Source: Acidimicrobiales bacterium
GTDB lineage: Bacteria; Actinomycetota; Acidimicrobiia; Acidimicrobiales; MedAcidi-G1
Assembly (NCBI GenBank): GCA_016845305.1
Contig: JAERSW010000056.1
Location: 1 to 38,069, forward strand
Length of the DNA stretch: 38,069 nt
Direction: 5' to 3'
This document shows, piece by piece, positions 33,198-38,069 of the stretch (within the stretch, counting starts at the first letter, position 1; the number at the start of each line of letters is the position of its first letter). A model generated the notes under the pieces. The model saw nothing but the letters and a program-made list of their open reading frames with translations. It was not told the origin of the DNA and made no database searches. The translations under genes were made by a program, and so were the position numbers.

Positions 33198-33920
33198 GTG
33201 CTCGGCCTGATCACCGGCAGCGGCTTCGACGGCCTGTCCGACCTCGAAGAGGCCGACCCCGACGTCGTCGCCACCCCCTACGGCGAGGTCCCGATCACCA
33301 GGGGCCGCCTGGACGGCTCACCGGTGGTCGTCCTGCGGCGCCACGGCACCGGCCACCGGGTCCCGCCCCACCGCATCGACTACCGGGCCAACGTCCGGGC
33401 CATCGGCGACGCCGGCGCCACGGCGGTGGTGGCCACCGCGGTGAGCGGCGCCATCGACCCGGCGCTCGGGCTCGGCGACCTGGTGCTGGTCGACCAGTTC
33501 ATCGACGCCACCCACGGTCGGATCGGCACCTTCCACGAGGACGAGGTGGTCCACACCGACATGACCGAGCCGTACGACCCGGCGCTCCGGGCCGAGGTCC
33601 GCGCCGCTGCGGCCGAGGCCGGCATCCCACTGGTCGAAGGGGGCACCTACGTGTGCACCAACGGTCCCCGGTTCGAGACGCCGGCCGAGATCCGCATGTA
33701 CCGGGCCGCCGGAGCGACGTTGGTCGGCATGACCGGCTGCCCGGAGGTGGCCCTGGCCGTCGAGTCGGGCCTCCCCTACGCCTCGGTCGGCGTGGTGTCG
33801 AACCCCGCTGCCGGCAGCAACGAGGAGCCGCTGGGCCTCGACGACATCCGGGCCGCCATGGCCGCGGCGGCCGAGCCGGTCCGGGCGCTGCTGGCCGGGA
33901 CGGCCGCCCGCCTCACCTAG
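33198..33920 (+). CDS. Purine nucleoside phosphorylase family, probably S-methyl-5'-thioinosine/thioadenosine phosphorylase
   Basis: Trimeric PNP/MTAP-family enzyme of 240 residues. Seen directly: LITGSGFDGL (phosphate loop), RRHGTGHRVPPHRIDYRANV (the phosphate-binding RHG and the RVPPHRINYRAN-like block of MTI/MTA phosphorylases), TAVSGAIDPALGLGDLVLVDQF, VCTNGPRFETPAEI and MTGCPEVALAVESGLPYAS. Near the base-binding site the chain reads VVSNPAAG, with Asn. MTA phosphorylases usually have TDYD there, whereas 6-oxopurine enzymes have Asn. This favours methylthioinosine (or inosine/guanosine) over MTA. An MTA/SAH deaminase gene lies convergent to it, and the two stop codons overlap. The pair would turn MTA into MTI and then hypoxanthine plus methylthioribose 1-phosphate. 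Confidence 0.85.
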   Translation: MLGLITGSGFDGLSDLEEADPDVVATPYGEVPITRGRLDGSPVVVLRRHGTGHRVPPHRIDYRANVRAIGDAGATAVVATAVSGAIDPALGLGDLVLVDQFIDATHGRIGTFHEDEVVHTDMTEPYDPALRAEVRAAAAEAGIPLVEGGTYVCTNGPRFETPAEIRMYRAAGATLVGMTGCPEVALAVESGLPYASVGVVSNPAAGSNEEPLGLDDIRAAMAAAAEPVRALLAGTAARLT

Positions 33921-35242
33921 CCCGCGGCCAGGCGTCGGGCCCGCTGCTGGACCTCGGCGCGGGCCCGGGCCACGTCGACGGTGAGGACCTCGCCGTCGGC
34001 CACCACCTTCTCGCCGGCCACCCACACGTCGGTGACCGATCGGGACGACCCGGACCACGCCAGGTGGGCCAGCAACTCGTCCGGTGACGTCACCGGTGTG
34101 AACGACGGATGGTCCAGGTCGATGCGGACCAGGTCGGCGGCCATCCCCGGGGCCAGGCATCCCACGTCGTCGAGTCCCACCGCGGTGGCTCCATGGCGTG
34201 TGGCCATGGCCAGCACCTGCCCGGCGGGCAGCAGCGTCGGGTCCAGGGCGTCGACCCGGGCCAGCAGCGACGCCACCTTGACCTCCTCGAAGAGGTCGAG
34301 GGTGTCGTTGGAGGCCGGACCGTCGGTGCCGAGGGCCACGGTGACGCCGGCGTCGAGCATGGCCGCCACCGGGGCGATCCCCGAGCCGAGCTTCATGTTG
34401 CTGACCGGACAGTGGGCCACGGCCACCCCGGAGTCGGCGAGCACCGCGATGTCGTCGTCGTCGACCCACACGGCGTGGGCGACGAGCACCCGACCGCCGA
34501 AGACGTCGGCGTCGTCGAGGATCCGCACGATGCTGCAGCCGTGCTCGGCCTCCAGCGGTGCACTCTCCTCGCGGGTCTCGGCCACGTGGACGTGGAGGAC
34601 CGCGTCCAGGTCGCGGGCCAGGCCGGCCAGCAGGGCGACGCGCTCCACGCCGAGGTCGTAGGCCGAGTGGGGGGCGATCCCGACGGTGATCCGACCGGCC
34701 GGATCGTGGTGTTCGGCGTGGAAGGCGGCCATGGCGTCGAGGCGGTCCCCGTCGCTTCCGAAGGCGTCGCCGTGGAGGACCGAGAGCACGGCCGGCGTGA
34801 CCACCAGACGTCCGCCCGAGGCCCGCACCGCGTCGACCACCGCGTCCTCGAACAGGTACATCTCGCAGCTGGTGGTGACCCCGGCGGCCAGCATCTCGGC
34901 CGACCCGAGGGCCATCCCCCACCAGACGTCGTCGGGCGTCATGCGTCCCTCCCGGGGCCACATGGCCTCGGTCAGCCACCGCTGGAGGGGCAGCCCGTCG
35001 CCCGCACCCCGGACCAGCGTCATGGGCGTGTGGGCGTGGGCGTTGACGAGGCCGGGCATGAGCAGCCCGCCGTGGTCGTGGACGGGCCCGTCGACGGGCG
35101 GGGCACCATCGACGGAGCCGACCCGCACGATCCGACCGTCGGAGACGTCGACCACCCCCGGGGCGTGCACGGCACCGACGTCGTCGCAGGTGACCACCAC
35201 GTCGGCCAGATGTCGCTCGGTGGTGGCAGCGGAACCGGGCAC
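33917..35242 (-). CDS. mtaD: 5-methylthioadenosine/S-adenosylhomocysteine deaminase (amidohydrolase)
   Basis: 441-residue amidohydrolase of the MtaD/TrzA/ATZ group that deaminates the adenine of MTA, SAH or adenosine. Metal and active-site motifs: [18 protein letters not shown] (HxH), [21 protein letters not shown] (metal His and the HVAET signature), [16 protein letters not shown] (His), and [16 protein letters not shown] with [18 protein letters not shown] (catalytic Asp in GTDGPASN). All match MtaD closely. GTG 35242 sits 6 bases after a TAACGT box on the minus strand, supporting a leaderless start. It is convergent with the nucleoside phosphorylase, and both TAG stops share a CTAG. Other amidohydrolase substrates (for example triazines) are possible but less likely here. 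Confidence 0.9.
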
Positions 35243-35364: not shown

Positions 35365-38069
35365 ATGAGCAAGCGACTCACCCGCCTGCTCGCCGTGATG
35401 CTGGGGTTCGCCCTGGTCGTCTCGGCGTGCGGCAGTGACAGTGACGATGCCGCACCAGCGGCGACCACCGCGGCACCCGCGGCCACCGAGGCCCCGGCGG
35501 CCACCGAGGCCCCCGAGCCGCCGGCCGAGCCGGTCAACGCCATGCTGGTGTTCGACATCGGCGGCCGTGGCGACCAGTCGTTCAACGACGCCGCCTACGC
35601 CGGCCTGAGCCGTGCCGCCGACGAGCTCGGCGCCAACGTCTCCGACGTGTCGCCCAACGCGGACGGCTCCAACCGGGCCGAGCTGCTGCGCCTCGCCGCC
35701 GACAGCAACGACATCGTCTTCGGCGTCGGCTTCCTGTTCGGCGACGCCATGACCGAGGTCGCCGCCGAGTACCCGGACGTCAACTTCGGCATCATCGACG
35801 GCTGGGTGGACGCCCCGAACGTGGCCTCCCTGGGCTTCGCCGAGCACGAGGGCTCGTTCCTCGTCGGCGCCGCCGCCGGCCTGAAGAGCACCACGGGCAA
35901 GATCGGCTTCATCGGTGGCGTGACCATCGACCTGATCGGCAAGTTCGAGGCCGGCTTCGTGGCCGGCGTCGCCGCCACCAACCCGGACGCCGTGGTGATG
36001 GTGGAGTACGTCTCCGACCCGCCCGACTTCTCCGGCTTCAACGCCCCCGACCGCGGCCGTGAGATCGCCCAGTCGATGTACGAGAAGGGCGCCGACATCG
36101 TGTACCACGCTGCCGGCGGCACCGGCGCCGGCCTCTTCGAGGCGGCCAAGGGCCACTCCGACAGCTCGGGCTCCAAGGTGTGGGCCATCGGCGTCGACTC
36201 GGACCAGTACAACACGTCCGACGAGTCGGTCCGCGACCACATCATGACCTCGATGCTGAAGCGGGTCGACGTGGCCGTGTACGAGGCCATCAAGGCCGTG
36301 GGCGACGGCACCTTCGCCGCGGGCGGCCAGTCGTTCGACCTGGCCATCGACGGCGTCGGCTACGCCACCACCGGTGGCTTCATCGACGACATCGTCCCGC
36401 AGCTCGAGGAGCTGAAGGCCAAGGTCATCAGCGGTGCCATCAGCGTGCCGACGGTGCCCGGCGAGCGCGCCGTGGTGCTGCCCGACCTGGGCGGCCGCGT
36501 CGTCACCATCGCCGTGGACAACGCCTACCTGCCGTTCGCCTACATCCCCGCCGACACCGGCGTGGCCACCGGCTGGGACTACGACGCTATGGACGAGGTG
36601 TGTGCCCGCCTGAACTGCGTTCCGAGCTTCCAGGAGTTCGCGTGGGACGGCACGATCATCGCCACGGGCCAGGGCCAGTTCGACATGGCCGGTGGTGGCA
36701 TCACCATCACCGAGGAGCGCGACGAGGTCGTCGACTTCTCGATCAGCTTCATCAGCACCGAGCAGAAGATCCTGGTCGCCAAGGGAAGCACCGAGATCAC
36801 CTCTCGGGCCGACCTCGAGGCCTCGGACTGCGATGCCGGTTCGATGACCGGAACGACGAACTACGACCTGACGGCCGAGATCACCGGTGAGGACCGGATC
36901 GTGGCCTTCGAGTCGTTCGCCTTCGCCGTGCAGGCCCTGATCGCCGGCGACGTGTGCGCCGTGATCATGGACGACGTGGCCGGTCAGGGCTACCAGGGCG
37001 AGAACGCCGACTCGGTGGACCTCCTGCCCGAGTCGTTGCAGAGCGATCCGCTGGGCTGGGCCTTCACCGAGGGCAGCGACCTGGTCGGTCCGTTCAACGA
37101 GGCCATCCAGTCCATGAAGGACGACGGCACCCTGAACGCCCTGAACGCCAAGTACTTCGGTACGGCGTTCACCGTCACCTACGACGACATCGGCGACGGC
37201 GCCTACGGCTCGGACGAGTCGGCCGCCGCGCTGCCGGGTGAGGGCCAGTCGTTCGTCCAGTGCCGCGGCAACTGGGCGTCGGGGTACGTGCAGGCCGAGA
37301 TCGTGCGTCAGATCCTCCAGGAGGCTGGCTACGAGATCTCGGATCCGGCTGACATCGAGCTGGGCCCGAGCAACGCGTACACGGCGATGGCCGAGGGTTC
37401 GTGTGACTTCTGGGCGAACTCGTGGTACCCGATGCACTTCTCGTGGTTCGAGAACCAGTTGACCGACGGCAGCCTCGTGGGTGACTACGTGGAGGCCGTG
37501 CCGGGCCTGTTCCAGGATTCCGGCGTGCAGGGCTTCCTGGTGACCAAGACGTGGGCCGAGGCCAACGACATCGTGTCGGTCGACCAGATCAACCGGGATC
37601 CGGCGCTGTACAGCCAGCTGGACAGCGATGGCAACGGCAAGGCCGAGATCCTGGGTTGCCCGGAGTCGTGGACCTGTGACGACATCATGGAGAACCAGAT
37701 CGCGTTCGGCAACGGCACCGAGCCGTGGGACAACTTCGAGGAGACCAAGGCCGAGTACGACGCCCTGTTCGCCGAGATGGTGAACCGCGTCAACAACGGC
37801 GAGCCGGGGATCCTGTACACGTGGTCGCCGGCTTCGTACCTGACGGTGCTGGTGCCCGGTGACAACGTGTTGTGGCTGTCGGTCGAGGCGGTCCTCGACG
37901 ACTCGAACCCGCTCGGCAAGGAGGGTGGCGAGAACCACCAGCAGGAGGAGGGCTTCACGGCCTTCGGTGCCGACATGTGCACGCAGCCGTGCCAGCTGGG
38001 TTGGTCGGCCGCTGACATCCAGGTGTCGGCCCGTACCGAGATGCTGGACGCCAACCCGTTCCTGCGGAA
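35365..38069 (+). CDS. Lipoprotein fusing three ABC-transporter substrate-binding domains: BMP, SBP_bac_3 and OpuAC/ProX (3' end cut by window)
   Basis: One open frame of 901 codons with no stop before the window edge; I read every codon. Residues 1-22 are a lipoprotein signal, [20 protein letters not shown] then AC, with lipobox VVSAC. An Ala/Thr/Glu/Pro linker follows (25-58). Domain 1 (about 59-372) is a BMP/Med nucleoside-binding type: [53 protein letters not shown] and [10 protein letters not shown]. Domain 2 (about 378-605) is SBP_bac_3: [26 protein letters not shown] with the amino-acid-carboxylate Arg, MTGTTNYDL and CAVIMDD. Domain 3 (about 623 on) is OpuAC/Pro[37 protein letters not shown], and many Trp residues suited to a cation cage. 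Membrane-anchored outside the cell, it would feed an ABC importer not seen here. Confidence 0.92.

Follow-up and report, generated by a model that had tools for sequence, protein, structure and literature searches.

Three different substrate-binding domain families in one lipoprotein frame of an Acidimicrobiales bacterium, and mixed-fold relatives in its family

The window analyzed here, 38,069 bp in length, is the entire contig C56 of a 2.92-Mb draft genome in 136 contigs, and its right edge is the exact contig end. An open reading frame starts with ATG at position 35365 on the forward strand and is still open at 38069 after 901 codons. The original prediction described an uninterrupted 901-codon frame. 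The frame is indeed open over this whole distance, but the protein is longer than 901 residues and continues past the contig end. Upstream are a divergent gene for a TRZ/ATZ-type amidohydrolase (33917–35242, reverse strand) and a gene of the MTA phosphorylase/purine nucleoside phosphorylase family (33198–33920, forward strand), which is used below as a synteny marker.

The frame (35365–38069) begins with a signal peptide and the lipobox VSAC with the lipid-anchor Cys22 (35365–35430), which were read from the sequence; orthologues have a similar N-terminus. Three binding domains follow on the forward strand, each with PDB relatives and each above the curated cut-off of Pfam-A. The BMP/PnrA-like domain (PF02608) corresponds to residues 61–362 (35545–36450; 202 bits, E = 1.2e-59), SBP_bac_3 (PF00497) to residues 380–599 (36502–37161; 107 bits, E = 9.9e-31), and the OpuAC/ProX-like domain (PF04069) to residues 636–898 (37270–38058; 75 bits, E = 1.2e-20). 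This is the predicted order. Linker 1 between the first two domains has 17 residues (36451–36501) and is 88–100% identical across the seven relatives compared. Beyond linker 2 (37162–37269), the third slot varies among genomes. The three domains had been described as complete, which is the case for BMP and SBP_bac_3. The OpuAC match ends at profile position 217 of 257, and this domain is incomplete and the frame unfinished because the window ends at the contig end. The NCBIfam matches are of the ProX-like, polar amino-acid and BMP-like types, and none exceeds the cut-offs of that library. With its lipobox and three domains above the curated Pfam cut-offs, the frame has two features of an ABC-importer substrate-binding lipoprotein.

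Ligand-site residues are retained; the original prediction had held that diagnostic residues appear intact. In sequence alignments, three Trp of OpuAC correspond to three Trp of the glycine-betaine-binding protein 1r9l, which presumably form the ligand box, and SBP_bac_3 keeps an Arg and an Asp common to 4zv1, which we take to be ligand-site residues. The BMP domain aligns with its PDB relatives over its full length. An AlphaFold2 model from a 14-row alignment had a mean pLDDT of 40 and was not used. The linker stretches scanned contain five in-frame GTG codons, the best of which has three of six matches to the Shine-Dalgarno consensus versus five of six at the true start. Separate starts or stop codons between the domains would contradict a fusion; the GTG codons have weaker Shine-Dalgarno matches than the real start, and BMP and SBP_bac_3 lie in one frame in relatives as well.

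In a census of 48 genomes of the window's GTDB family, at least 17 have BMP and SBP_bac_3 in one frame (BMP-SBP3); the census draws mostly on long frames, and its counts are lower bounds. Because the same junction recurs in related genomes, the fusion is more than a chance event, and the predicted natural fusion of three binding-protein families in one lipoprotein is upheld by this recurrence and by the Pfam-A scores. The third slot is OpuAC in 8 of the 17 genomes (G000, G033, G035, G037, G038, G039, G040 and G047; in G033, G035, G039 and G047 read from its first residues only). A second OpuAC subfamily occupies it in two (G043 and G045) and another BMP in one (G030), and it is unreached in two (G032 and G044). 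In the remaining four (G025, G028, G029 and G031) it is assigned to Peripla_BP_6 from its first residues only. Here, the tail of G031 matches Peripla_BP_6 of Pfam over 40 positions (E = 6.6e-6, below the curated cut-off), and the other three are assigned by likeness to G031. The 52-residue tail of G025 has no Pfam match, and blastp of two tails from the genus g6 against a Peripla_BP_6 module gave no match. The order BMP, SBP_bac_3, OpuAC is conserved within the genus. G037 contains a complete BMP-SBP3-OpuAC gene with a stop codon, on a contig of 256,601 bp and 108 bp away from its end. In a public genome collection scanned with six exact peptide patterns, which reach close relatives only, BMP-SBP3 is present in 11 of the 17 loci found (L013–L023). 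These MAG records carry the names Acidimicrobiia, Acidimicrobiaceae, Acidimicrobiales, Candidatus Microthrix or Actinomycetota, and several are apparently the same as family genomes, so that the counts are not independent.

Each of the three domains is under selection against amino-acid change. Comparison of the window with 7 of 11 relatives (Nei-Gojobori) gives dN/dS of 0.16–0.31 for BMP and 0.09–0.21 for SBP_bac_3. For OpuAC it is 0.16–0.23 in the five genomes sharing this third slot, three of them with just 32–67 codons. The total range of 0.09–0.31 excludes the third slots of G029, which is not OpuAC, and of G043, which belongs to the other OpuAC subfamily (25% identity, dN/dS 0.88).

BMP-SBP3 is one of many mixed combinations. 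When four binding-protein families are counted, at least 24 of the 48 family genomes combine two or more of them in a single frame. Several of these frames are cut by contig ends, and the loci, having been selected for their long frames, do not represent a random sample. The longest mixture is Peripla_BP_6-OpuAC-BMP-PhnD, four families in a 1471-residue frame of G025. Local profiles and Pfam further reveal OpuAC-SBP3-SBP_bac_5 (G006 and G008), OpuAC-Peripla_BP_6 (G006), BMP-BMP-SBP_bac_5 (G021 and G022), Peripla_BP_6-SBP_bac_5 (six loci), BMP-SBP_bac_5, SBP3-SBP_bac_5, Peripla_BP_6-BMP, BMP-SBP3-BMP and SBP3-OpuAC. The N-terminal module of contig C59 of the window's own genome, designated C59N, has no Pfam match even at E = 1; C59N-OpuAC is seen in C59 and in G033. 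In the genus g6, contig ends are compatible with chains of BMP-SBP3-PBP6-OpuAC(-OpuAC) before ProVW.

Outside the window's GTDB family, no BMP-SBP3 span is among the matches listed for 395 genomes of the class, and among those listed for 296 class genomes the PBP6-SBP5 span is seen only in the window's own genome. These searches used two query types and scored two candidates per genome, and both samples include some genomes of the family. The results are evidence that mixed-fold chains are rare elsewhere, which does not imply that they are absent.

The modules are reused in different genes, and assemblies tend to break there. Of the 17 BMP-SBP3 frames, 15 run off a contig end, compared with about 1.6 expected for a 2-kb stretch (estimated from rounded contig numbers, the 2-kb stretch having been picked after the data were seen). 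It is likely that the reused modules cause these contig ends. Such genes tend to break in these draft assemblies, and their true length is thereby hidden. In G006, two different fusion genes have in common a 1149-bp stretch, 98.8% identical, that covers the OpuAC module. G029 contains two OpuAC copies (contig C4; 99.6%) with a period of 1011 bp, which is also the period in contig C97 of the window's genome. Two BMP copies in G022 (C65) are 100% identical, and two OpuAC2 copies in G024 are 98.9% identical. Within the window's own genome, the half-copy in C97 is 98.3% identical to C17 over 300 bp, and C56 is 98.2% identical to C73 over 332 bp and 90% to the full copy in C97.

A tree of 21 OpuAC domains, leaving out those below 150 bits or shorter than about 190 residues, groups them largely by genus rather than by architecture, except for G025:C34; only 4 of its 16 inner branches are well supported. 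The idea that modules of one genome are mutual nearest relatives was given up as a rule: it holds for G006 and G029 (identical copies), and fails for G025 (73%) and the OpuAC of the window. The latter is 87% identical to the C97 copy, which is itself 92–94% identical to the copies of other genomes. Module exchange is thus clear in some genomes; the window's own OpuAC copy is not among these cases.

The last 141 bp of the window (37929–38069, forward strand) are identical to the first 141 bp of two contigs of the same genome, C97 and C17. The assembly breaks at this repeat, and contigs ending at a repeat would show such an overlap. C97 reads on in frame with the rest of one OpuAC, a linker, a second OpuAC and a stop codon. 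Behind the stop are genes for a GlnP-like permease, a GlnQ-like ATPase, a BMP/B6-type ATPase, two BPD_transp_2 permeases, PhyH and adenosine deaminase. C17 reads on to a stop codon, followed by ProV and a long ProW-like permease gene. Joining C97 would give a protein of 1293 residues that includes a second OpuAC, and joining C17 one of 957 residues. C97 encodes GlnP as a gene of its own, and the chains of C97 and of the relative G037 stop after OpuAC. In one alignment of the 3′ ends (L009:1000–1560, L010 and L069), C97, C73 and G037 have a terminator-like G+C-rich inverted repeat with T residues after the OpuAC stop.

C97 is favored over C17 as the continuation because of synteny. In four loci of the genera g2 and g3 (L142, L143, L144 and L147), a homologue of the window's amidohydrolase (58–71% identity) is placed divergently beside GlnP-GlnQ, with no binding-protein gene in between according to the profiles used here. 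Adenosine deaminase then follows in L142 and L144, the two loci with enough sequence, and in all four the BMP-importer genes lie beyond the amidohydrolase. With the same profiles, nine GlnP loci of other genera have no binding-protein gene beside GlnP. In G030, homologues of the amidohydrolase and the phosphorylase are a few kb upstream of the full operon from GlnP to adenosine deaminase. Both homologues are upstream of 5 of the 17 BMP-SBP3 heads (the window's own genome, G032, G033, G035 and G040); in the stretches examined, this arrangement is not seen for the other 12, and the amidohydrolase is upstream of these five heads only. In the genus g4 (G013 and G014), an SBP3-headed gene is divergent from the amidohydrolase.

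Through the C56-C97 join, the downstream operon of the window gene would encode a GlnPQ-like importer, a BMP-type importer and adenosine deaminase. The purine theme of the MTA phosphorylase family gene, the deaminase-like TRZ/ATZ-type amidohydrolase and adenosine deaminase suits a nucleoside-type BMP module. Against this join, C17 with its ProVW genes begins with the same 141 bp, and the join is absent from the assembly. The search for permease and ATPase genes behind the frame, which the original prediction had proposed, finds the window ending inside the gene, and the candidate importer genes are on C97, which the overlap and synteny would link to the frame.

In contrast to the probable order in the window's genome, a C59N-OpuAC head is directly before the GlnP-GlnQ-BMP operon in G033:C50 (L090), either by misjoin or by true exchange. 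That C59-type heads are the owners of the GlnP operon, as in G033:C50, seems less likely because the window-like amidohydrolase abuts GlnP-GlnQ in other genera. In G038:C53 (L131:3–1376, forward strand), one open frame covers the tail of an OpuAC, 28 residues from an OpuAC start and GlnP, which is either a receptor-permease fusion by deletion or an assembly error.

The genes downstream of 38 fusion rows, from relatives and the own contig C97, were found by six-frame phmmer. Import genes are seen directly downstream in 29 of the 38. The other nine have no recognized ABC gene downstream, three of them with less than 500 bp of sequence. All 17 frames ending with SBP_bac_5 are followed by an Opp/Dpp-type permease, the single frame ending with PhnD by PhnC-PhnE, and all four ending with BMP (one with a weak second BMP) by BMP importer genes. 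Frames ending with OpuAC or OpuAC2 are followed by ProV in four cases and GlnP in three, and two, counted among the nine, are too short to tell. Five further OpuAC genes of g1, g4 and g6 and several OpuAC2 genes precede ProV; in G042 (L152), a BMP-type ATPase comes after an OpuAC end. Because the C-terminal module matches the downstream importer in most recognized loci, this module often resembles the operon's own binding protein, and the front modules would be additions. The GlnP locus deviates, as the expected cognates SBP3 and BMP are internal and OpuAC is last.

The usual view of a binding protein is that of a single domain serving a single importer. The domains of the tandem in GlnPQ belong to one family, and in OpuA-type importers an OpuAC domain is fused to the permease. 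The window frame has at least two binding domains per chain as these importers do, with the difference that its domains come from three families (PF02608, PF00497 and PF04069), and G037 and C97 have no permease fusion. It resembles GlnPQ in its tandem domains, its short linker (17 residues for linker 1, 14 in GlnPQ) and ABC import (PMC8025302). GlnPQ domains are fused to the permease, whereas the window combines three families in a lipoprotein that is not part of the permease. The OpuAC family is shared with OpuA, but in the window it forms one module within a mixed receptor. Each module matches the family of a single-domain lipoprotein (PnrA/BMP, GlnH/HisJ or ProX) in Pfam and PDB, and differs in that the modules are consecutive in one chain. 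Tandem binding proteins elsewhere in the class (G222, G315, G307 and G176) likewise have two binding domains per open frame, but these are copies of one family. The literature matches listed include work on GlnPQ and OpuA and, to judge by titles and abstracts, no description of mixed-fold chains, preprints and most subscription papers being outside the scope of the search. The predicted novelty agrees with this, but the frame is one member of a combinatorial family and not an isolated case.

The architecture itself is well supported. We consider it probable that the protein is an anchored chain of BMP, SBP_bac_3 and OpuAC modules, each of which recognizes a particular class of solute and passes it on to the corresponding ABC importer. 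It would be one lipid-anchored extracytoplasmic receptor, probably with a second OpuAC. The putative solutes are purine nucleoside-like for BMP, amino-acid-like for SBP_bac_3 and betaine-like for OpuAC. The modules of the one chain would dock in turn, each on its own importer; BMP-type and GlnPQ-type importers are most likely encoded just downstream, and ProVW would be elsewhere. One anchored receptor may thus feed several uptake systems. Counting against this reading are the competing overlap with C17, the C59N-OpuAC head in front of the GlnP operon in G033, the BMP-type ATPase after OpuAC in G042, the nine GlnP loci without a neighboring binding-protein gene, the 12 heads for which the stretches examined have no upstream amidohydrolase, the nine fusion rows lacking a recognized ABC gene, and OpuAC as an unexpected final module at the GlnP locus. 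Independent modules are plausible because the tandem domains of GlnPQ are reported to bind and operate largely independently (PMC8025302). Delivery of several solutes to one transporter, as originally suggested, fits more poorly, as the operon inferred includes GlnP/GlnQ-like genes plus a separate BMP-type importer, and other OpuAC genes are before ProV/ProW.

In-frame recombination between similar modules is probably how the family expands. A broader generalization can be proposed only tentatively, at somewhat below even chances: BMP, SBP_bac_3, OpuAC, Peripla_BP_6, SBP_bac_5, PhnD and other modules may be recombined in frame into lineage-specific lipoproteins with two to four modules, perhaps five, with one receptor serving several ABC importers, including those of other loci, and a composition that evolves by module exchange. 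Such a mixed-fold lineage would make it testable whether one receptor serves several importers, and how modules recombine yet stay functional.

The chain could instead be a largely neutral by-product of recombination among repeated modules, whose passengers may bind without a dedicated importer. The near-identical tandem copies in G029, G022 and G024, the same OpuAC module in two genes of G006 and the differing module composition among genomes are in line with this, but it is unlikely in view of dN/dS well below 1 in all three domains, the order conserved within the genus and the retained ligand-site residues. A polyprotein precursor, processed after export by cleavage in the linkers to yield individual binding proteins, would be in accordance with short linkers that have recurrent PGE/PGDG-like stretches and with modules reused as units. 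It is improbable, as the lipid anchor would stay on the first module only and no cleavage site is identified. There is very little chance that an assembler joined separate binding-protein genes of a metagenome into a chimera. The genomes are drafts of many contigs, this contig stops at a repeat common to other contigs, and G033:C50 and G038:C53 look discordant, but the BMP-SBP3 junction with its 17-residue linker is present in many separately deposited records and G037 has the whole gene with its stop. The residual assembly risk is located beyond the OpuAC repeat. A sensory or transport co-receptor, close to the multi-input chemosensor of the original prediction, is suggested by the multi-input layout alone and is the least credible reading, since Pfam detects no signalling output domain in the window frame, the C-terminal end of which is outside the window, or in the 18 relatives scanned, and import genes are downstream in most fusion rows.

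Three further long frames were encountered. G119:C6 has a 960-residue frame with one SBP_bac_5 span in the class-wide search. In the window's own genome, contig C134 (L109:2563–6027, reverse strand) has a frame of 1155 residues that contains Peripla_BP_6 and a weak NMT1_2/OpuAC-like match scoring under the cut-off, possibly another mixed fusion. Contig C41 (L112:2183–5173, reverse strand) has a 997-residue frame in which Peripla_BP_6 (residues 252–592) is followed by a domain of the Beta-lactamase family (PF00144, residues 668–973).
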